DNA from: a virus
Direction: 5' to 3' (one strand)
Virus record (IMG/VR): IMGVR_UViG_3300023174_000184
Span: 1 to 59,965 of that record
DNA length: 59,965 nt
The notes under the pieces were generated by a model, which searched no databases, was not told where the DNA came from, and saw nothing but the letters and a program-made list of their open reading frames with translations. This document shows positions 2,196-52,627 of this stretch, in pieces (position 1 is the first letter of the stretch; each line of letters starts with the position of its first letter). A program made the translations under genes and the position numbers.

Positions 2196-3617
2196 TTATC
2201 GACATATAGGAAAATTATACATTTTTTCCCATTTTATAATATCATTTTCATCATTTAATAATGGCTGACCCTTAATATTTAAACTTGTATTTAGTAATAC
2301 TGGACACCCAGTATCCCAATACCATTTTCTTAATGTCATATGCAGACCTGGATGTTGTTCTTTACTTACCGTCTGTATTCTTGAAGTTCCATCTTGGTGT
2401 ACAACTGAAGGTATTTTATCTGGGTACTTACATTTAACAGTATATTGCATATATGGAGATGAAAAATCCATATCAAACCATTCATTTGCAAACTCTTCTA
2501 AAACTACTGGTGCAAAAGGTCTAAAAGGTTCTCTTTGTTTAATCAGGTTAACCTTATTTTTGATGTCTGGATCTCTTGGATCAGCAAGTATGCTCCTATT
2601 CCCTAATGCTCTTGGTCCATACTCTGCTCTGCCAGTTGCAACTGCTACGATCTTATCTTTTTTAAGTCCCGAAATAATTTTATCAATAGGATATTCTCCA
2701 CCAAGATCGTATCCTAAATATGGAGACTTCCAATTTATATGCTTTCCATATAATGCTGCTGCTGCACCAAGAGAAGAGCCTGCATCTCCTGGATTTGGCA
2801 TAATCCAAACATCTTTAAATATATTCCAAAGCAATGTATTTGCAGATGAATTAAGAGCACAACCACCCATAAAGACAAGATTACTTTTCCCAGTCAACTC
2901 TTTAGCCATTATCATAAACTCTGTAAGCCTCAATTGATATACATACTGTACTGCTGCTGCTATATCAAACTTGTCTTGTTCTGTGATTGGTTCATCCCAA
3001 TCAATGATTCCTTTATGAAAATTATACTTTTGCATATCATGTCTAATAAAGTATTTAGATACTTTTGATGCATACCTTTCTGGATCCCCATACGCAGCCA
3101 TGCCCATCATAATATACTCTTCTTGATTTGGCATAAGTCCAATAAGTTGTGTAAATGCTGAATAAAATAAACCAAAACTTACTGGATAATTTTGTTTATA
3201 TTTTAATTTAATTTTTTTACCTTCTCCAACCCAAATAGTTGAAGTATTAAATTCACCAATTGCATCCAGTGCTACAATTACAGCATCAGTAAATTTACTT
3301 GTATAGTAACCAGCACATGCATGAGAATAGTGGTGATTAAAATATTTAACTGGAAGATTCATTGGAATATTTGGTTTCCAGTCTGCAGAACCACCTTTTA
3401 ATAAAATACGTGATTGTTTTAATCTTGGATGTTCATAGTAGGCAATATGTGTTGGTGTAGCATAATTAAGCATATCAAGATATATATCTTTGTTGTTATA
3501 CCAGTCATTCTTTTTTTTACTATATCTTTCTGCATGTCCAGCAAAAAGTATTTCTCCATCTTTAATTAGAGATACTGATGCATCGTGAGATGTTTCATTA
3601 ATACCTAAAATTATCAT
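2196..3617 (-). CDS. Carbamoyltransferase, NodU/CmcH/TobZ family
   Basis: 473 residues. The N-terminal Kae1-like domain has INETSHDASVSLIKDGE (His11) and NHHYSHACAGYYTS (His95, His96, His99), the metal and nucleotide site of the family. It continues to FMGGCALN and PNPGDAGSSLGAA. The YrdC-like C-terminal part has GPRALGNRSILADPR, FRPFAPVV, HQDGTSRIQTV and LLNTSLNIKGQP. The family makes carbamoyl-adenylate from carbamoyl phosphate and ATP and moves the carbamoyl group to a hydroxyl of a sugar or small molecule. It is shorter than the usual 550-600 residues and ends soon after the LNTS motif. It overlaps the SGNH gene upstream by 4 nt, so the two probably share a substrate. The acceptor is unknown. 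Confidence 0.93.
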   Translation of the reverse strand: MIILGINETSHDASVSLIKDGEILFAGHAERYSKKKNDWYNNKDIYLDMLNYATPTHIAYYEHPRLKQSRILLKGGSADWKPNIPMNLPVKYFNHHYSHACAGYYTSKFTDAVIVALDAIGEFNTSTIWVGEGKKIKLKYKQNYPVSFGLFYSAFTQLIGLMPNQEEYIMMGMAAYGDPERYASKVSKYFIRHDMQKYNFHKGIIDWDEPITEQDKFDIAAAVQYVYQLRLTEFMIMAKELTGKSNLVFMGGCALNSSANTLLWNIFKDVWIMPNPGDAGSSLGAAAALYGKHINWKSPYLGYDLGGEYPIDKIISGLKKDKIVAVATGRAEYGPRALGNRSILADPRDPDIKNKVNLIKQREPFRPFAPVVLEEFANEWFDMDFSSPYMQYTVKCKYPDKIPSVVHQDGTSRIQTVSKEQHPGLHMTLRKWYWDTGCPVLLNTSLNIKGQPLLNDENDIIKWEKMYNFPICR

Positions 3618-4405
3618 AGTAGTCCTAAATATTTTTCATATATAAAATTACTCCACCATAATTGCATTCCAGTTCCAGGATGTTCTCCGTCTCTTGCAAC
3701 ATGAAAGTATTTGCTTTTATTATTAAATTTTAGTATAGCAATTTCTTTAATCATTTTTTTAAAATCAACTTCATAAAATGTTTCAAAATTATAATTTTTA
3801 AATAATTCATTTGTTGGCAAAATTGATTTGTTTTTATCAATATCTTTTTCTTTTATTATCTCAAAATTTAAATTTTTGTAAATGTAATCCCAAGTAAATG
3901 ATAATAATTTTATATTATTTGACCTACAATATTGTTCTAACATAAAATAATATTGAAAGTTTAAAAAACAAACTTTTTTGTATTCTTCTACATCATCTAA
4001 TTTTAAAACATATCCATTTAAATCATTTTTGTATTCAAAAGATCTTAATTGATTACTTAAATTAATAAATATAACATCTGGATTTCCATATTGTTTAAAA
4101 TAACGAAACAAATTAATAGTCATATGATCTATACCAGATCCACCAACACCTAAATTAAAAAAACCAGAACATTTTTCATTATTGGATATTTTTTCATAAA
4201 CTTTATAAGCCCAAATCTCTTTTTTTTCAAGTCCAATTCCAAAAGTATTTGAACAACCAGAAAAAACTATATGCTTGCCATGATGAACATTAGTAAATTC
4301 ATCTGAGCGAAATCCTAAAGAATTAACATCTTCGTAGTTTAAATGGTTATTGCAAAATAATTCATTAGAAAAATCTTTAATTTTCTTTTTTGTAATAACT
4401 TTCAT
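3614..4405 (-). CDS. SGNH/GDSL-like hydrolase or acyltransferase, copy 1
   Basis: 263 residues. Block I is FSGCSNTFGIG, with nucleophile Ser52 in a GCSxTxG variant of GDSxTxG. NLGVGGSG follows, then a VIFINL strand, and block V RDGEHPGTG supplies Asp239 and His242. The triad looks intact. SGNH enzymes remove or add acyl groups on sugars and lipids. It is a clear paralogue of the next gene (shared FRSDEFTNVHHGKH and FKQYGNPDVIFINL). The three genes carbamoyltransferase-SGNH-SGNH overlap by 4 nt each, a tight operon. Base composition is strikingly AT-rich, more so than neighbouring structural genes. The substrate is unknown. Confidence 0.75.
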   Translation of the reverse strand: MKVITKKKIKDFSNELFCNNHLNYEDVNSLGFRSDEFTNVHHGKHIVFSGCSNTFGIGLEKKEIWAYKVYEKISNNEKCSGFFNLGVGGSGIDHMTINLFRYFKQYGNPDVIFINLSNQLRSFEYKNDLNGYVLKLDDVEEYKKVCFLNFQYYFMLEQYCRSNNIKLLSFTWDYIYKNLNFEIIKEKDIDKNKSILPTNELFKNYNFETFYEVDFKKMIKEIAILKFNNKSKYFHVARDGEHPGTGMQLWWSNFIYEKYLGLL

Positions 4406-5202
4406 TTTTTATTATTTTCTAATTTTATATATTTATCATATATAAAATTTGCATAGGCTATATGAAAACTAGTTCCAGGATGAAATCCATCTCTTGATGT
4501 TATGCTGTATTGATTTTTATCATATTTTAATATTTTTTTTATTTCTTTATAATATTCAACTTCATCAATTTTATAAAATGTATTAAAATTATAACTATCA
4601 AAAAAATCATTAGTGCTTTTAAAGTTTTTATCTCTTTTAAATAAAAAATCTTTATCTTCTTTTATATCCCAACTAAAAGAAAATAATTTAATATTGTTTG
4701 ATTTACAGTATGTTTCAAGCATTAAATAATATTCATAAGTTAAATAATAAACTAAATCTATAAAACTTTTATCTTCAAGTCTTACAACACGATACCTACT
4801 ATTTTTATTTAAAGTGAATCTTGGTAAATCTGGTAAATTAATAAATATTACATCTGGATTTCCATATTGTTTAAAATATTTAAAAAGATTAGAAATTATG
4901 TGTATTGCCCCATGACCATAAACTCCTAAATTAAAATAGCCAGAGCATTGATTATTTTTTAATATTTTATTGTATAAAACTTTTGACCAAATTTCTTCAA
5001 GTTCAAGACCATTTCCATATGTATAAGAACAACCAGAAAATAAAATATGTTTTCCATGATGAACATTAGTAAATTCATCTGATCTAAATAAAAAAGAATT
5101 TAAATCTTCTTTATGTGCACTTACATACTGTGGAATAAAAAAATTTGTTATAGGATCTAAATTTAAATTGAATTCAGTATGTTTTGGTAAAAAATGTTCC
5201 AT
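4402..5202 (-). CDS. SGNH/GDSL-like hydrolase or acyltransferase, copy 2
   Basis: 266 residues, paralogous to the adjacent gene. Block I is FSGCSYTYGNG (Ser59), then NLGVYGHGA, VIFINLPDL, and block V RDGFHPGTS (Asp238, His241). No signal peptide or membrane segment is visible in either copy, so they should act in the cytoplasm. The tandem duplication with both triads kept suggests two related substrates or a heterodimer. It is the first gene of the carbamoyltransferase operon, expressed from the extended -10 at 5292-5300 or by read-through from the tRNA. Confidence 0.75.
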   Translation of the reverse strand: MEHFLPKHTEFNLNLDPITNFFIPQYVSAHKEDLNSFLFRSDEFTNVHHGKHILFSGCSYTYGNGLELEEIWSKVLYNKILKNNQCSGYFNLGVYGHGAIHIISNLFKYFKQYGNPDVIFINLPDLPRFTLNKNSRYRVVRLEDKSFIDLVYYLTYEYYLMLETYCKSNNIKLFSFSWDIKEDKDFLFKRDKNFKSTNDFFDSYNFNTFYKIDEVEYYKEIKKILKYDKNQYSITSRDGFHPGTSFHIAYANFIYDKYIKLENNKK

Positions 5203-45429: not shown

Positions 45430-45881
45430 TAACTATAAGCCTCTTGATTTTCAGATCTACGCAAAAGAATTTTATAATATTCAATTGCCCTAAATGGTCC
45501 AAAGAATGGATCTAATGTTGCAATCTCATATATTGTTCCTCTTCCAGATCTTGGTCCAGAAGTTTCTCTATAAATTAAATTATCTGAAGCATCTCTAATA
45601 TTACTAATTAAAATATTATTTGTTGCATTGTTTGATTCTTGAGATGATATTCTTGGATCACTTTTTAGTCTTCCGATTAACTTATTACCATTTTTTAAAA
45701 TCATTTCTGGCTTAATATCTTCACCACTTTGCCTTCCAACAAAAGAAGCATTAAGGCTTATAGTTCTATCATATACCCAAGATTTTTCTGGTTGACCATA
45801 TTTATTTTGTGTGACCAATGGGTAGTAGATATCTGCCTTCATTGGATACATAAAATCTGGGGTATCGCAGCCCATCTCCAT
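45429..45881 (-). CDS. Head-closure (stopper-like) protein
   Basis: 150 residues. PMKADIYYPLVTQNKYGQPE followed by WVYDRTISLNASFVGR resembles stopper proteins (SPP1 gp16/HK97 gp7-like), small beta proteins that seal the connector. Second in the connector series. Moderate certainty. Confidence 0.65.
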   Translation of the reverse strand: MEMGCDTPDFMYPMKADIYYPLVTQNKYGQPEKSWVYDRTISLNASFVGRQSGEDIKPEMILKNGNKLIGRLKSDPRISSQESNNATNNILISNIRDASDNLIYRETSGPRSGRGTIYEIATLDPFFGPFRAIEYYKILLRRSENQEAYS

Positions 45882-46852
45882 TAGATTGCCCTTGGCTTAT
45901 AAACTGAAACAATATATTTTTGTAGAATCTTATCCACAAAGCCATTGCCAGTTCCAGCAAATAATGAAGTATCAAATTTAATATTAAATTGATCTGTTTG
46001 ATATCCAACAACATATTTTTTTGCATAGTCAAGGTTTCCACATTTAATATCTTCAACTAAACGACGAACTGCATCTTGAACATCATGCGGAATAACTTTG
46101 TATCCTGCCTCATAAATAAAAATATAATCTGTGCCTTCAGGAAACATAACTGGTTGATCATAAAGCACGGTATGAGAACTGTCAATAGGAATAGATGCAC
46201 GATATGAATCTGAAAATGCTCTTGGTAACTGTCTTGGACGTTTTTCAGCACGATTAAAATTATTTATTCTTGGAACTGGTTCTTTATAAATTGCAGAACG
46301 GTCCTGTGTAATACCGTATGTAAAACCACCAATTTCTGGAGTATCAGCATCAACATCATATACCAATTCACCATTTTCATAAACCTTAATAATTTTATAC
46401 CCTATATCCCAAAGAGGCATATAGTCTGTTCCTTCTCCAACAACTTCCATAACTGTTTTTTCAAAAATAAAACCTTTTGGTCCAACCATTGAATCAACAA
46501 GACCTCTGGCAAGTTGTTCATATTCTTTGTATTCTGCAATCTCTGTTGCTGTTGTTCCTAAAGTATTTGGATCAACATATGGCTTCATAATATTAAGAAC
46601 ATCTTCAACTACAACATCTCCATATATTGTTCCATCTGGAGTATCATAAATTAATACTGCATAGTTATGATCATATTTAACAAAATCTCCAGTAAGTTCA
46701 TATACAACTTTTGCATCTGCATTAGATGTTAAGACAACTTGAGCCTCAATTGTTTTTGGAGCATTTTCAATTGTAAAAATATATTGCTCATTGGCATCTG
46801 GTACGGAGTATGTAACTGATAAAGGATATGGTGGGAGTCTTAAAATTTGCAT
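45881..46852 (-). CDS. Head-tail connector/adaptor-like protein
   Basis: 323 residues, large for an adaptor. An N-terminal beta domain (RLPPYPLSVTYSVPDANEQY) is followed by a helical part with DVLNIMKPYVD and EYKEYEQLARGLVDSMVG, then beta strands with MEVVGEGTDYMPLWDIGYKI, and a C-terminal helix DVQDAVRRLVEDIKCG. The VGEGTDYxPLWDxGYKII and FPEGTDYIFIYEAGYKVI segments are internal repeats of one another. Probably joins portal and tail. Confidence 0.65.
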   Translation of the reverse strand: MQILRLPPYPLSVTYSVPDANEQYIFTIENAPKTIEAQVVLTSNADAKVVYELTGDFVKYDHNYAVLIYDTPDGTIYGDVVVEDVLNIMKPYVDPNTLGTTATEIAEYKEYEQLARGLVDSMVGPKGFIFEKTVMEVVGEGTDYMPLWDIGYKIIKVYENGELVYDVDADTPEIGGFTYGITQDRSAIYKEPVPRINNFNRAEKRPRQLPRAFSDSYRASIPIDSSHTVLYDQPVMFPEGTDYIFIYEAGYKVIPHDVQDAVRRLVEDIKCGNLDYAKKYVVGYQTDQFNIKFDTSLFAGTGNGFVDKILQKYIVSVYKPRAI

Positions 46853-47292
46853 TATTTGGTACCGTAGTGTCTTGCTACCTCATCAGGAGTTGCTATACGA
46901 ACTGCCTTATGAGTTATCCACTTTTCGGATGCCTCCTTAGATACTATATTGTACCCCAATTCTAATACCCCAACTCCAGTCCAAGATAAATTTCTTGTAG
47001 AGTGTACAGCAACATCATTTTTATTCTTTTTTATTTTTTTTGTTTCAATAACTTGAACTGGTTCTTGTTTTTTAGATATTGCATTAATTACATTTTCAGG
47101 ATTTTTAATTTCTTCTTCAGACTTTGCTTGTTCTTGAACTTTTTTAGCAAGACCACTTTCATTTGAATATTTTTCTAATATAGCAATAATCTGTGCTTTT
47201 TTTACATTACTTTCTAAACTTATTCCATTGTCTTCACAATAAGAACGAAGTTCTAAAACTGTCTTTTTGTTTAAAACATCATAAAGTGACAT
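46852..47292 (-). CDS. Head accessory protein with HeH/SAP-like domain
   Basis: 146 residues. The N-terminal 45 residues (LNKKTVLELRSYCEDNGISL then KKAQIIAILEKY) form a helix-extended-helix like HeH, LEM or SAP domains that can bind DNA. A Lys/Glu linker leads to a C-terminal domain with NLSWTGVGVLELGYNIVS and HKAVRIATPDEVARHY. This last domain is shared with the next gene. Between connector and capsid genes, so likely in the head. Confidence 0.7.
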   Translation of the reverse strand: MSLYDVLNKKTVLELRSYCEDNGISLESNVKKAQIIAILEKYSNESGLAKKVQEQAKSEEEIKNPENVINAISKKQEPVQVIETKKIKKNKNDVAVHSTRNLSWTGVGVLELGYNIVSKEASEKWITHKAVRIATPDEVARHYGTK

Positions 47293-47336: not shown

Positions 47337-47672
47337 TTACTTAAGGTATGTCTTAATTTCGTCTTTGTTTGCTAAACGAACAGCCTTATGATTTGCAATT
47401 TTTTCATAACGATTTTTGCTAACAAAACTATATCCTTTTGGAATTGTAGATCCGCCTGGAAGTGTCAAACTACGTAGTGTATAAATTGCAATATCTTCTG
47501 CTGAATTATCTTCAAACTTAGATACTGACTCTTCAACCTTTGGTGCTTCTACAACTGGTGCTTCTACAACAGGTGCTTCAACCTTTGGCTCTTCTAATAC
47601 TGGTGCTTCTACAATTGCCTCAACTACTGGAGTCTCAACAACTGGTGCATTTTCATTTTTATTTTCAAACAT
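47337..47672 (-). CDS. Head accessory protein with PVEA repeats
   Basis: 111 residues. An N-terminal Pro/Val/Glu/Ala repeat (about 9-48: PVVEAPVVEAPKVEE) is followed by a C-terminal domain (about 58-111; IYTLRSLTLPGGSTIPKGYS, VSKNRYEKIANHKAVRLANK) that is paralogous to the end of the neighbouring protein. The extended repeat may be a flexible tether on the capsid. Has its own promoter with AGGAGG at the mRNA start. Confidence 0.7.
   Translation of the reverse strand: MFENKNENAPVVETPVVEAIVEAPVLEEPKVEAPVVEAPVVEAPKVEESVSKFEDNSAEDIAIYTLRSLTLPGGSTIPKGYSFVSKNRYEKIANHKAVRLANKDEIKTYLK
47521..47650 (-). repeat. Tandem repeat encoding PVVEAP-type units
   Basis: Imperfect 15-nt repeats (PVVEA, PKVEA, PVLEE) at DNA and protein level. 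Repeat number is likely to vary between related phages. Confidence 0.75.
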
Positions 47673-47688: not shown

Positions 47689-47697
47689 ATTATATCA
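47689..47697 (-). promoter_or_regulatory. Extended -10 promoter TGATATAAT
   Basis: Between the capsid-arm-like gene and the PVEA-repeat gene. The mRNA would start near 47682 at AGGAGG, about 10 nt before the ATG. Confidence 0.45.
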
Positions 47698-47700
47698 TAA

Positions 47701-47934
47701 TTACTTTTTACGACTAGATCTAAACCTACCTTGTGTTGCAAGCCTAATTCCACTTGGATCTCCAGATGGATTAACTGCGTTTGCTCCAGACGTTTCCCCT
47801 AAAATTGCCACACCATTTTGTCCAAGATACTGCTGTGTCATAGGTCCTGATGGACCCATTACTATTGCACCTACTACAACAAATGCTCCCTCTCCATTTA
47901 ATGGATTATTTGCATCTGTACCTGGATATGACAT
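47701..47934 (-). CDS. Stand-alone paralogue of the capsid N-terminal arm
   Basis: 77 residues that match residues 13-82 of the major capsid protein just upstream: YPG (3-5), LNGEGAF (12-18) against LNGQGSF, GETSGANAVNPSGDPSGIRL (46-65) against GVTSGPNAVHPTGTPGGILL, then QGRF against QARRF. It stops where the capsid core begins and ends in a basic tail (RSSRKK). I know no named family. It may be an assembly factor, decoration or minor capsid component; see findings. Confidence 0.8.
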   Translation of the reverse strand: MSYPGTDANNPLNGEGAFVVVGAIVMGPSGPMTQQYLGQNGVAILGETSGANAVNPSGDPSGIRLATQGRFRSSRKK

Positions 47935-47956
47935 AAAACTCCTAAAACTAAATTAA

Positions 47957-47986
47957 GGGGAGGGAGGATATTTCACCGCCCTCCCC
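47957..47986 (-). terminator. Intrinsic terminator after the major capsid gene
   Basis: GGGGAGGG (47986-47979) and CCCTCCCC (47964-47957) form 8 GC-rich bp, extended by GG/CC inside, then a TTAATTTAGTTTT tract. It separates the capsid gene from the arm paralogue. Confidence 0.82.
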
Positions 47987-48007
47987 CTATTTGGTTATAG
48001 ACTTATA

Positions 48008-49141
48008 TTATTCATCTGCTGCAGCGTCTGCGAAAGCAACTGCATCAAGTTCTTCCCACTGAATACCAAAACGAACGAATACTGTGTATTCGATTGTGTC
48101 CTTCTTTGGACGGTATTCACGGTTTACAGTGATATCACGCTGGAATCCCCAGATACGGTTCTGTGGGAATGTCAAATCGACATATCCTGCAGGGTAGTAA
48201 GGAACTTCCTGAACATCAATTCCTAGAACACGAGTTGTACGTGCTCCACCGAATGTCTGTCCTGTACCATCAAGGTATGCCTGACGGTTCTGCGCTGTAC
48301 CAGCAGGAACTGAAGAAAATGCTTCAGCAATTGCATCTGCAAGTGTTCCATTGTACTTTACAATACCCTGGAATGCATCTGTACCAGCATAAAACTTAAG
48401 ATTATTCTTAAGTGCACGGTACTTACGTGGCATTGCAAGGATAATATCCTGCATTACATTTGTGTTCCATGCGTTATCTGTTACTGTAACTATTGATTCG
48501 TGTGCTCCTGAACCATCAGCCTTAGCCTTTTTGATAAAACCATTCATGATTGAAAGGAAGTCACCTGTTGAACCATCGCCATTAATAGCAAGGTCTTCAA
48601 TATCGTTTGCAAATGCGTTAGTCATCAAGCGAACTAGATGATCTTCCAACGCACCTCCTTCAATATTATCTTCAAGTGCTTCTGTTGCTACTTCCCAGTC
48701 AAGACGAATCTTCTTGGTAGTAAGTTCAACCTTAGTAAAAGTTGCACCGACGTTTGTGTAGTTGTATGATGCTTGAGCAGCAGCACGAATTACACGCTCA
48801 CCGACGTTAACCTTATCAAGTTCCATTGTGTTTGCACGCATTGTAACTCTACGTCCATCTTGAGCGAGGACAGTTGCATCCCACACGTAATCAATGAAGC
48901 GACGAGCCTGTTCAGGCAATAGAATACCACCAGGGGTTCCTGTTGGATGTACTGCGTTTGGTCCAGATGTAACTCCTGTGATTGGTGTTGGGATATTTCC
49001 CATTGCACCACCACGAGTAGGAACTGCTCCGCTACCTGAAGTATCTCCTGATGCGAAAGAACCCTGACCGTTTAGTTCAGCGCCTGAGCCACCAGAACCT
49101 GGATAGTTCTTTACGATTTCTGTATTTGTTGTTTCCGACAT
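48008..49141 (-). CDS. Major capsid protein (HK97 fold)
   Basis: 377 residues from the ATG at 49141, set by AGGAGG 8 nt upstream (a GTG three codons earlier is in frame). A Gly/Ser-rich N-terminal arm (1-75) leads to LPEQARRFIDYVWDATVLAQ, the E-loop and spine region, EDLAINGDGSTGD, and C-terminal EYTVFVRFGIQWEELDAVAF. Higher G+C by eye and flanking strong signals indicate very high expression. The arm is duplicated in the next gene. Confidence 0.92.
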   Translation of the reverse strand: MSETTNTEIVKNYPGSGGSGAELNGQGSFASGDTSGSGAVPTRGGAMGNIPTPITGVTSGPNAVHPTGTPGGILLPEQARRFIDYVWDATVLAQDGRRVTMRANTMELDKVNVGERVIRAAAQASYNYTNVGATFTKVELTTKKIRLDWEVATEALEDNIEGGALEDHLVRLMTNAFANDIEDLAINGDGSTGDFLSIMNGFIKKAKADGSGAHESIVTVTDNAWNTNVMQDIILAMPRKYRALKNNLKFYAGTDAFQGIVKYNGTLADAIAEAFSSVPAGTAQNRQAYLDGTGQTFGGARTTRVLGIDVQEVPYYPAGYVDLTFPQNRIWGFQRDITVNREYRPKKDTIEYTVFVRFGIQWEELDAVAFADAAADE

Positions 49142-49163
49142 ATTGTTCACCTCCTAGTGATTA

Positions 49164-49757
49164 TTATCGTTTGAATAGGTCGGTTGATTTGAGGAAACTA
49201 CCGCCCCATAGGGATTTATGAGTAGACATTTCTGCCAACTCCTGCACGATCTCGCCAAGATCGCCAGACTTGCGGAAAGCAGTGTCAGCCTCAACTTTAT
49301 CTACTCGCTTTCCAAACTCATTAAAGTTACCTTGAACATTTGCAACTTCATTTGCTACAGTTTCAACTTTATTGTTGACTGTTGCTAAATTTCCATTTAC
49401 ATCTGCAAGAGACTTTGATAGTTGAGCAACCTGATCGCTAATTGATTTTACGGTTGCTGTTAGGTCGCCAAAGGCATTAGTTAGAGAATCCTTAATGTCT
49501 GCAACAGCAGTGGCAACTGCTTCATCGTCAGACTTTTCTACTGTATGGATTTCTGGTTTAGCATCTGCATCTGAAGGATTATTTGGTGTTTCACCAATAA
49601 TATCTTGGCTATCTACAGCCTCATTGATATCCTTCTTTTCTACTTCTGCTTCTGTCTCTGGAGCAACCTCAACATTTGTAATTTCTTCTGTTGGTGCTTC
49701 TGGTGTAACTTCTTCAGTTACAACATCTTCAACAACTGTTGTTGTTTCATCTGTCAT
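49164..49757 (-). CDS. Nested in-frame scaffold protein (internal start)
   Basis: An ATG at 49757 (residue 253 of the fusion, MTDETTT) is preceded by AAAGGAGG with 8 nt spacing, one of the best ribosome sites in the window, yet inside the gene. It would give a 197-residue acidic and coiled-coil scaffold without protease. This is the arrangement of lambda C/Nu3. The start is inferred from sequence; it is in frame with the fusion. Confidence 0.7.
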   Translation of the reverse strand: MTDETTTVVEDVVTEEVTPEAPTEEITNVEVAPETEAEVEKKDINEAVDSQDIIGETPNNPSDADAKPEIHTVEKSDDEAVATAVADIKDSLTNAFGDLTATVKSISDQVAQLSKSLADVNGNLATVNNKVETVANEVANVQGNFNEFGKRVDKVEADTAFRKSGDLGEIVQELAEMSTHKSLWGGSFLKSTDLFKR

Positions 49758-50513
49758 TGGATTTGCCTCCTTTGTCATCTTAATTGTTCTAATGCCTTTT
49801 GCACTATCAACTAAGAACTTTATTGTTTCTATATTTTCATCATCGTTTTCTACGAAACCAATATTTTTCATTGTCTTGCTACATGTAGGGCAGTCTTCTT
49901 GTGACTCTGGAGACACTCTTACGATGTCATCTGAATTACACCAGTAAACATTGTCAACTACTGCTTTTGATAAATATCCACCCATAACATTTTCCCCATT
50001 AACTTTTTCAATTGAAATAACATTAGCAAATTGGTTTGCTGGACTATCTACAAGAGATAACTCAAATAATTCATATTCTTTAATAACACGAATAGCCTTA
50101 TCAATTTCTACATTAAATTCATCATCAGACTTTGTAATATTTCCACCAATTGAAAAACCAGTTAGTGTTCCATCAAGAACCTTTTCCCAAGTATCTTGTG
50201 CACCCTTTGAAACATATGCTGAAACAAAAACTCCATTATAAAATTTCTTTGTTGATGGATCAAAATACTTATCCTCTTTAAAAGATACTACTTTGCCTAC
50301 TGCTGTTGGTTGATGCATTTCACGCAAATTACCACGAAACTTTTTAAAAGCCTCAAGGCTTGCCTGTGTATCTACAATGTCGCCCTGCTTATCAATATTA
50401 TCTAGTGTTGCAAATCCTGATACAAGGCGACGTTCTTGATCTACCTTGCCAATTGGCATAGAAAATCTTAGATTGTTGCCTTCAGTTGTCCAGTGTGCTT
50501 TATTGATACTCAT
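49164..50513 (-). CDS. Prohead protease fused to scaffold
   Basis: 449 residues. The S78 protease part (1-170) has RRLVSGFATLDNIDKQGD, His67 in MHQPTAVG, Ser121 in LTGFSIGG and ELSLVDSPAN (Asp156). A Cys cluster (Cys192, Cys208, Cys211) follows, then an acidic stretch (about 253-335) and a coiled coil (335-425) typical of scaffolds. The protease matures the capsid; the scaffold guides assembly and is digested. An internal start for the scaffold alone is listed separately. Confidence 0.9.
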   Translation of the reverse strand: MSINKAHWTTEGNNLRFSMPIGKVDQERRLVSGFATLDNIDKQGDIVDTQASLEAFKKFRGNLREMHQPTAVGKVVSFKEDKYFDPSTKKFYNGVFVSAYVSKGAQDTWEKVLDGTLTGFSIGGNITKSDDEFNVEIDKAIRVIKEYELFELSLVDSPANQFANVISIEKVNGENVMGGYLSKAVVDNVYWCNSDDIVRVSPESQEDCPTCSKTMKNIGFVENDDENIETIKFLVDSAKGIRTIKMTKEANPMTDETTTVVEDVVTEEVTPEAPTEEITNVEVAPETEAEVEKKDINEAVDSQDIIGETPNNPSDADAKPEIHTVEKSDDEAVATAVADIKDSLTNAFGDLTATVKSISDQVAQLSKSLADVNGNLATVNNKVETVANEVANVQGNFNEFGKRVDKVEADTAFRKSGDLGEIVQELAEMSTHKSLWGGSFLKSTDLFKR

Positions 50514-50553: not shown

Positions 50554-52224
50554 TTATTGAGATGATCTACCTTGACCCTTTGCATTTCTTCCAGAGACTG
50601 TTGCTGCCCCGTCAGATTGGTTATTTGCTCTTTCACCATCACGAGTCCTAGTCTTTTTATTATTAGCATTTGCATCTGCTGCTGCCCTGGCAGTTAACTG
50701 AAGAGGTTGATCTCCATGTTGTGCCTGTGGAAGATTAAGAAGTTCACGAGCCTCATTTGGAAGCATAATTTGGTTCTTAACATATCTTTCAAGAATTTGA
50801 GATTGTGCAATTTCATCTGTAAGTGTAAGTTCATTAAACTTAAATTCAAGTACATCTGTTTTTTCTTTAATAACCTTATTGATAGTTTTTTCTAGATTTC
50901 TTTGTTCTGGACGAGAAACTTGTTCTTTGAATGTTCTATCTTGTGATAAAGCACCAGCAAGTGAGCCTGAGTCAGAACCACCAATTTTTGAGATAGGCAT
51001 CTGATGAGCAATAAAAATATCGTCACGATTTTGCTTGCGATACTCTTTAAATGATCCTTCTTGAATACCATTCTCAATAGCCTTCATTTCAAACTCAACC
51101 TTATTATGGTCTTGGTCTCCAGGAAGTGGTAAATATAGTGTTCTATGAGATTGAGCCTTTAGCCCTGTTTGTAAGAATCGGAACATCTTATCTTCTGCAT
51201 CTGGTGATAGTTTTGCACCCTTCAACATAATAATATATCTTGGTACCGCTTTATTTTCAAAATAATCGATATTGTACTGTGATGCCAACTGATCACCAAT
51301 TAGTGATGGTAGGGCAGCCACAATATCTGGAACTCCATAATATGTATTAAGTGGTGAATATTCTTTAATATGGATAATCTCATTTGGACGAGGGTCAGCA
51401 GTCAGTGGATTTAGATTTGTTGCTCCAAAATTACGGAAGTAAACTAACTTCTGACCAATAATTTGAACAAACCCATCCTTTAATCTACGAACACGAAGGG
51501 TTGTAGATGGAATGTGACCAACGTAACCAATATCTCCATTTACTGTTCGACCAATTTCAAGGTAGCCATTTCCCGTTGCTTGAACATCCGTGTAAACTTT
51601 TTCCATTGTTTTTGTAAAACTATCATCATCATTTAATGATTCAAGCCAATCACGCATTTGAAGTTTCATTCTTTCAATTCGCTTACGAGCACGATCTACA
51701 GCCTCTGCATCATCATTCATTTCCATACGTAACATTGTGCTGTCATTTACATTAAAGTCATATCCTAGACCAACAACATTTTCCACCTTTGCATCAATAG
51801 CAGCATGGTTAGCAAAAGATGTATCGTAAAAATTTGCTAATTCATAAAGATTGTATGGTGGAGTTATAACGTCAAAAATTCCATAACCATTTCTATAAAC
51901 AGTTCCAGGATTTAATTGTTTTGACTCTGCTCCATCTTGTCCCGTTGGACTTGCTTTTGCACCAGTAAGATATTCATCCATTGTGGCTGCATCATATGGA
52001 CGCATTGCATTTTTTGTATCAACATTTGAAAAAGAGGTATAGTCCCCACCATATGCTTTTTCTGTTCTTGTTGTTTTTCTTTTAAAGTTAACATCTAAAT
52101 TATTAAGAGATTTTAATTCATCCCATGAACGAATAAATGGATCTTGTCTTTTAAATATATTTTCTTCTTTTTCCTGAGTATTTAAACTTGCAGGAACAAC
52201 ATATTCATATTCTTCATCAGCCAT
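50554..52224 (-). CDS. Portal protein
   Basis: 556 residues from the ATG at 52224 (a longer frame runs back to 52290 inside the neighbour). Features of HK97/PBSX portals: GTVYRNGYGIFDVI, a clip and stem region with SFTKTMEKVYTDVQATGNGY, PNEIIHIKEYSPLNTYYGVP, LASQYNIDYFENKAVPRYII, and IFIAHQMPISKIG. A long basic, Asn/Gln-rich tail follows. The dodecameric ring is the DNA gate. Overlaps the previous gene by 8 nt. Confidence 0.92.
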   Translation of the reverse strand: MADEEYEYVVPASLNTQEKEENIFKRQDPFIRSWDELKSLNNLDVNFKRKTTRTEKAYGGDYTSFSNVDTKNAMRPYDAATMDEYLTGAKASPTGQDGAESKQLNPGTVYRNGYGIFDVITPPYNLYELANFYDTSFANHAAIDAKVENVVGLGYDFNVNDSTMLRMEMNDDAEAVDRARKRIERMKLQMRDWLESLNDDDSFTKTMEKVYTDVQATGNGYLEIGRTVNGDIGYVGHIPSTTLRVRRLKDGFVQIIGQKLVYFRNFGATNLNPLTADPRPNEIIHIKEYSPLNTYYGVPDIVAALPSLIGDQLASQYNIDYFENKAVPRYIIMLKGAKLSPDAEDKMFRFLQTGLKAQSHRTLYLPLPGDQDHNKVEFEMKAIENGIQEGSFKEYRKQNRDDIFIAHQMPISKIGGSDSGSLAGALSQDRTFKEQVSRPEQRNLEKTINKVIKEKTDVLEFKFNELTLTDEIAQSQILERYVKNQIMLPNEARELLNLPQAQHGDQPLQLTARAAADANANNKKTRTRDGERANNQSDGAATVSGRNAKGQGRSSQ

Positions 52225-52627
52225 TTTCGTAAGCATCTCTTCCATATGTGCTAAGTGTATCTTGTGCTGCCTTCCATGCACCAAGATCATTCATTGATGG
52301 TATAAGACCTTCTTTTAGTCTATCCATTTGCTCTGAGTGTTCTTCCTCAGAAATTCTTGTAAGACCAGGAACAAAAACTGCTTCTCCATCACCTGGATCG
52401 CCATTTCCCATTGCTGCCTGTTTTAATTTTGCAATTTGTGATACATCACCTTTCATTGAGGGGATGTTAAGTACAGATCCATTACCATCTGTAAACCATT
52501 TTCCGTTTGACTTCTTATAAACATAAAGTCCCCAGTCATAGTTCTTATCAATGACCTTACGACGTACATTTCCTACAATAGGCTTACCAGTTTTACGGTT
52601 AATTAGCGGATTATTATTCATGTCCAT
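52217..52627 (-). CDS. Conserved protein upstream of the portal
   Basis: 136 residues. NPLINRKTGKPIVGNVRRKV, then NYDWGLYVYKKSNGKWFTDG and an acidic helical part (ISEEEHSEQMDRLKEGLIPS). It is probably a head or packaging protein, by position only. Its ATG is exactly 6 nt after a TATACT box, so the mRNA is likely leaderless. Confidence 0.75.
   Translation of the reverse strand: MDMNNNPLINRKTGKPIVGNVRRKVIDKNYDWGLYVYKKSNGKWFTDGNGSVLNIPSMKGDVSQIAKLKQAAMGNGDPGDGEAVFVPGLTRISEEEHSEQMDRLKEGLIPSMNDLGAWKAAQDTLSTYGRDAYENG

Follow-up and report, generated by a model that had tools for sequence, protein, structure and literature searches.

Tailed-phage capsid proteins are known to have full-length paralogues, both at vertices and in satellites, and scaffolds occur in fused as well as separate forms. 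The vertex protein gp24 of T4 is a full HK97-fold paralogue of the capsid protein with a special position in the head. Decoration (cement) proteins such as gpD of lambda are abundant folded domains that sit on the outside of mature capsids and have no relation to the capsid protein; the internal proteins of T4 carry capsid targeting sequences. Ccm of SaPIbov5 is a capsid protein homologue that occupies pentamers (PMC8569155), and CpmB of SaPI1 is a competitor of the phage scaffold for a capsid-protein site (PMC5644958); together they show that copying or competing with head components can reshape capsids (PMC5644958, PMC8569155). The N-terminal scaffolding domain of the HK97 capsid protein is mostly helical and missing from the mature capsid, and scaffold domains joined to the N-terminus of this protein mediate the mismatch in symmetry at the portal vertex (PMC10275583).

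The head module and the copy of the capsid arm

The window, that is the whole stretch of DNA analysed here, is a virus record of 59,965 bases (IMGVR_UViG_3300023174_000184) with its head genes on the minus strand. They run in the order portal, protease, capsid, an ORF of 77 residues (hereafter the small gene), genes for proteins of 111 and 146 residues, and head–tail genes, with the following features.

50554–52290, minus strand: portal gene
49164–50513, minus strand: head maturation protease (S78-like), with a coiled-coil C-terminal part that is likely the scaffold
48008–49150, minus strand: major capsid protein gene, 380 residues, PHROG 1623, HK97-type fold
48905–49108, minus strand: arm-coding part of the capsid gene (residues 15–82), homologous to the small protein
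47957–47988, minus strand: terminator-like hairpin in the gap between the capsid gene and the small gene (minimum free energy of the gap fold −29.1 kcal/mol)
47939–47943, minus strand: AGGAG ribosome-binding site of the small gene, seen in the sequence 4 bases 5' of the ATG
47701–47934, minus strand: small gene, 77 residues, encoding a free-standing capsid-arm copy that ends in a basic tail (RFRSSRKK), recognized by its ORF, homology, family alignment and dN/dS
47689–47697, minus strand: promoter-like TGATATAAT, directly 3' of the small gene and 5' of the next gene
47337–47672, minus strand: next gene after the small gene, 111 residues, sharing a C-terminal domain with the 146-residue protein
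46852–47292, minus strand: 146-residue protein with a HeH/Rho_N-like N-terminal domain, the conserved next gene in relatives
45881–46852: connector gene

The capsid protein matches the PHROG 1623 profile (E = 3e-75) and is related to those of cultured Streptomyces phages (45% identity to BillNye, for example) from residue 74 onward. Its AlphaFold2 model is poor (pLDDT 47.1) and was used solely for a coarse assignment to the HK97 type; Foldseek matches of the predicted fold are HK97-type capsids, with T5 first. The C-terminal domain common to the 111- and 146-residue proteins (43% identity over 47 residues, E = 8e-12) is found in only a single such protein in many relatives, so the module contains another duplicated structural gene. 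Elsewhere in the window two tandem duplicated genes of unknown function (3614–4405 and 4402–5202, 52% identical over 241 residues) adjoin a carbamoyltransferase-like gene (2196–3617).

The initial annotation, made from the sequence alone, had aligned the 77-residue protein with the N-terminal arm of the capsid protein encoded upstream and had it stop where the capsid core begins, and both observations hold. Profile–profile alignment (hhalign) pairs residues 2–69 of the small protein with capsid residues 15–82 (probability 99.2%, E = 2.2e-19), BLASTP against its own capsid protein gives E = 9e-7, and the stop coincides with the region in which homology to the cultured-phage capsids sets in, at residue 74. 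The local alignment score of 99 exceeds that of every one of 5000 shuffles (mean 34.9, s.d. 5.9, maximum 67), so composition cannot account for the likeness. An HMM built from 68 capsid arms, taken solely from loci that lack the small gene, finds all 33 distinct small proteins at 25–55 bits (the best of 3299 scored shuffles reaches 11.5). With the shuffles and this independent HMM, low-complexity similarity is ruled out. Profile and structure-database searches gave no PHROG, Pfam or PDB match to the small protein at useful significance, which excludes membership of an unrelated known family and bears out the earlier statement that no described family has this layout. From these comparisons the small protein is a duplicate of the capsid arm that has become a free-standing gene, conserved in other genomes and under selection.

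The likeness extends through an LPxQ stretch at the core boundary, beyond which the small proteins carry a short tail (basic in nearly all of them) in place of the capsid core; ending there, the 77-residue protein lacks the HK97 core fold. AlphaFold2 gives it no fold (pLDDT 47.5). The arm is glycine-rich, and neither arm nor small protein has a helix of note in these low-confidence models (pLDDT ~47), in which, owing to that low confidence, no docking site is visible.

In the cultured relatives BillNye, Belfort, Weasels2 and NiceHouse the capsid protein begins with a short N-terminus (MSNELLEKVIRTTEVG type) that leads directly into the core, and a hairpin lies after the gene. As these Streptomyces and Rhodococcus phages have neither arm nor small gene, the arm in the group of the window is best read as an insertion into the capsid protein, and the small protein as corresponding to this insertion plus the core boundary.

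The maturation protease encoded upstream and the basic tail that ends nearly all small proteins could be taken to mean that the small protein is internal head cargo, the arm serving, like the targeting sequences of T4 internal proteins, as a targeting or processing sequence in common with the capsid protein; it would bring the small protein into the prohead for cutting by the protease, so that the tail stays with the DNA. We regard this as improbable: about 10 residues would be left after removal of the arm, which is little cargo, no cargo domain follows the arm, and the homology runs through the LPxQ motif into the core boundary. Moreover, protease-dependent maturation does not require the arm, since the cultured relatives possess the protease and lack the arm.

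Distribution, selection and expression of the small gene

A first scan yielded at least 79 capsid arms and one other free copy. In profile-guided scans of related phages, proposed in the initial annotation, the pair of small gene and arm-bearing capsid gene recurred on at least 46 further IMG/VR contigs, giving at least 33 distinct small proteins in all. Wherever the contig reaches, the small gene lies directly downstream of an arm-bearing capsid gene, with a gap of 65–78 nt. This evidence is comparative and comes from metagenomic contigs, which may be incomplete; the phage group is uncultured and, judging from the contig sources, apparently aquatic. The small gene was found in no cultured phage, and no relative was present among 25 candidate stretches of a collection of cellular genomes. 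No third arm-bearing protein is present in 12 records searched whole or in the first 80 loci.

Pairwise dN/dS of the small gene is ~0.14, compared with 0.10 for the capsid core, and its motifs are conserved across the 33 distinct proteins; by these comparisons it is under purifying selection. Close relatives with a nearly identical capsid protein can nevertheless cleanly lack it, and occupied and empty sites can be compared directly (L149 and L154 versus L146, L150 and L134). Since it is missing from such close relatives, the small gene is not essential for head assembly in general, and by its distribution it is dispensable on an evolutionary timescale. On a tree of the capsid core its presence falls into four groups that need at least four changes, which implies repeated loss or gain. 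When arms and small proteins are placed on one tree, the small proteins form one group (SH-aLRT 85, or 82 without the motif region), which with moderate support favours a single duplication.

The initial annotation placed a strong terminator between the two genes. A strong hairpin is indeed present in the window and universal in the group, as all 34 distinct gaps fold below −18 kcal/mol; the terminator call itself is less secure, with an imperfect T tract in the window at which a strict terminator scan makes no call. TATAAT occurs in none of the 34 distinct gaps and stands immediately after the small gene in 34 of 34 distinct loci. At loci without the small gene the hairpin is found in 70 of 70 distinct cases and TATAAT within 110 nt of the capsid stop in 69 of them; the two cultured Streptomyces phages likewise have TATAAT after the hairpin of the capsid gene. 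In the window TGNTATAAT occurs at nine sites, all on the coding (minus) strand and within ~65 nt upstream of gene starts, and it is a probable extended −10 promoter of this phage. With the hairpin before it and TATAAT after it, the small gene is thus inserted behind the capsid terminator and ahead of the promoter that comes next. As the gap has no TATAAT, this layout suggests that expression of the gene probably depends on read-through of the capsid terminator and is hence at a low level.

Matched variation of arm and small protein

Near its start, a capsid arm has a motif of either the NGxG type or the HxH type. Among 27 distinct pairs with a complete capsid arm, arm and small protein are both HxH in 22 and both NGxG in five, with no mismatch. 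The small proteins form one family on the tree although both types occur among the pairs, and on the core tree the agreement amounts to one switch of small-protein type. Within the HxH clade, which is the densest, distances between small proteins correlate with those between arms at r = 0.76, compared with 0.43–0.53 for the capsid core, its third codon positions, the protease, the next gene and the connector. There the partial correlation of small protein and arm is 0.54 (Mantel, P = 5e-4, from permutations without correction for phylogeny), and in 95% of subsamples the small protein correlates best with the arm. Because the capsid core sits between the two coding stretches, linkage is not a ready explanation for their co-variation. 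The connector protein is the second-best correlate (partial r = 0.35–0.51), which is no more than a lead but means that the small protein may have other partners; the gene between it and the small gene shows no such correlation.

Recent gene conversion between arm and small gene was considered and is ruled out, as no homogenized DNA is seen: the longest exact match within a genome is at most 12 nt and averages 9.0 nt, versus 9.7 nt between genomes. The absence of homogenization also bears on whether the duplicated arm is a functionless by-product, its likeness to the tethered arm reflecting common descent and a shared recombination history. Related sequences always co-vary somewhat, and the patchy occurrence of the gene (in four groups on the core tree, and missing from close relatives) would fit. 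Against this stand the dN/dS of 0.14, the motifs conserved over 33 distinct proteins and a correlation with the arm that exceeds that with linked genes, including the capsid core in between; we give this explanation little likelihood.

At loci without the small gene, all 58 distinct arms keep an intact GxNAVxPxG motif. In pairs, the NAVNP motif is lost from the arm while the small protein keeps it in 10 cases, from the small protein while the arm keeps it in four, and from both in none. On the core tree the arm motif changes only about three times, so this complementary loss is suggestive, and the matched evolution as a whole rests on few independent events. That arm and small protein evolve in step suggests a common place for them in the virus shell, and the simplest account of the sequence comparisons would be that in the head the tethered arm and the free one share a site or touch each other.

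The arm-type match, the co-variation and the complementary motif loss would also fit if the free arm is a regulator that competes briefly with tethered arms during prohead assembly and sets size, curvature or timing, as a non-permanent component of the virion. A position in the capsid transcript behind a hairpin would suit such a dose-limited factor, for which CpmB of SaPI1 provides a precedent (PMC5644958). For a size determinant it would be odd, however, that very close relatives lack the gene while their neighbouring head genes are otherwise visibly unchanged, and such a role seems unlikely.

The patchy, accessory distribution also invites comparison with satellite capsid homologues that act on a helper, Ccm of SaPIbov5 redirecting helper capsids being the precedent (PMC8569155). 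The free arm might by analogy poison capsid assembly of competing related phages. Yet in the densest clade the small protein tracks the arm of its own capsid protein, so that its own assembly would be hit first, and the gene lies in the head transcript and not among the early genes; interference of this kind is highly improbable.

As an observation in its own right, HxH occurs in both arm and small protein at L085, L097–L126, L137, L149 and the other HxH loci, and may, by analogy, coordinate metal. Phage tail fibres form a metal-binding trimer through HxH motifs (PMC11705849); such a trimer was considered here, and nothing beyond the motif itself speaks in its favour.

Proposed role and comparison with known systems

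The reading that we prefer, with moderate confidence, is that the 77-residue protein is a minor head protein derived from a duplicated capsid arm and docks where the tethered arm docks. An HK97-fold capsid protein would have gained a glycine-rich arm of ~55 residues between its short, conserved N-terminus (MSE..EIVKN) and its core (GGILLPEQ), and a duplicate of this arm would then have become a separate gene behind the terminator hairpin of the capsid gene. Having no promoter of its own, this gene would be translated from capsid transcripts that extend past the hairpin, and fewer copies would be made of its product than of the capsid protein. The free arm, probably unfolded until bound, would dock at tethered-arm sites, either on adjacent capsid subunits or interwoven with further arms, and would take positions where the tethered arm is absent or out of reach; in place of the capsid core, its basic tail would bind DNA or the inner face of the shell. 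The small protein would be located in the head. The interpretation in the initial annotation is in this way partly supported: the homology, the selected free-standing gene, its place behind a hairpin and the matched evolution agree with it, and the smaller amount, the presence in virions, the special positions and an effect on assembly stand as proposals. Since the coiled-coil of the protease probably scaffolds and arm-less relatives exist, the arm would be an elaboration of the shell and not core assembly machinery.

A more specific form of this proposal, which we consider rather unlikely, is that detached arms are produced in a small, measured amount and fill the sites left empty where the portal replaces a pentamer, or at another unique place. 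Arm and free copy would then be interchangeable and share the work, completing the shell where its symmetry breaks. Placing the free arm at the portal vertex is speculation by analogy with HK97.

Comparison with the systems introduced above sets out what is particular to this locus. Like Ccm, the small protein is a separately encoded capsid homologue that is proposed to act in the same shell; Ccm, however, forms whole pentameric capsomers and is satellite-encoded, whereas the small protein is the arm alone, without an HK97 core, and belongs to the phage itself. As with CpmB, it is a small protein proposed to bind where another head component binds, but CpmB rivals a scaffolding protein, while the small protein resembles the capsid protein's own arm; their matched evolution suggests the shared site. 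The scaffolding domains of HK97 and T5 are likewise segments N-terminal to an HK97 core, and T5 capsids are the closest folds found. The arm differs from the HK97 domain in being glycine-rich, with no predicted helix in a low-confidence model, in its absence from cultured relatives, and in having beside it a protease whose coiled-coil probably scaffolds. With gp24 of T4 the small protein shares the status of a capsid paralogue in the same genome, although gp24 retains the full HK97 fold and the small protein consists of the arm alone. It is encoded beside the capsid gene and may bind the arm region of the shell, in which it resembles gpD of lambda; it differs in that it duplicates the arm, has no predicted fold and is probably scarce. 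In T4 internal proteins a targeting sequence is followed by a cargo domain, whereas the arm of the small protein is followed by a short basic tail only.

We know of no case in which a flexible arm alone has been duplicated as a gene of its own and has stayed matched to the tethered one. Phages with the pair, with the tethered arm alone and with no arm constitute a natural experiment on the function of such arms, and the unannotated gene found next to the capsid gene in many uncultured phages gains a testable role. The small protein is a new family, and a variation on the theme of capsid-protein paralogues.
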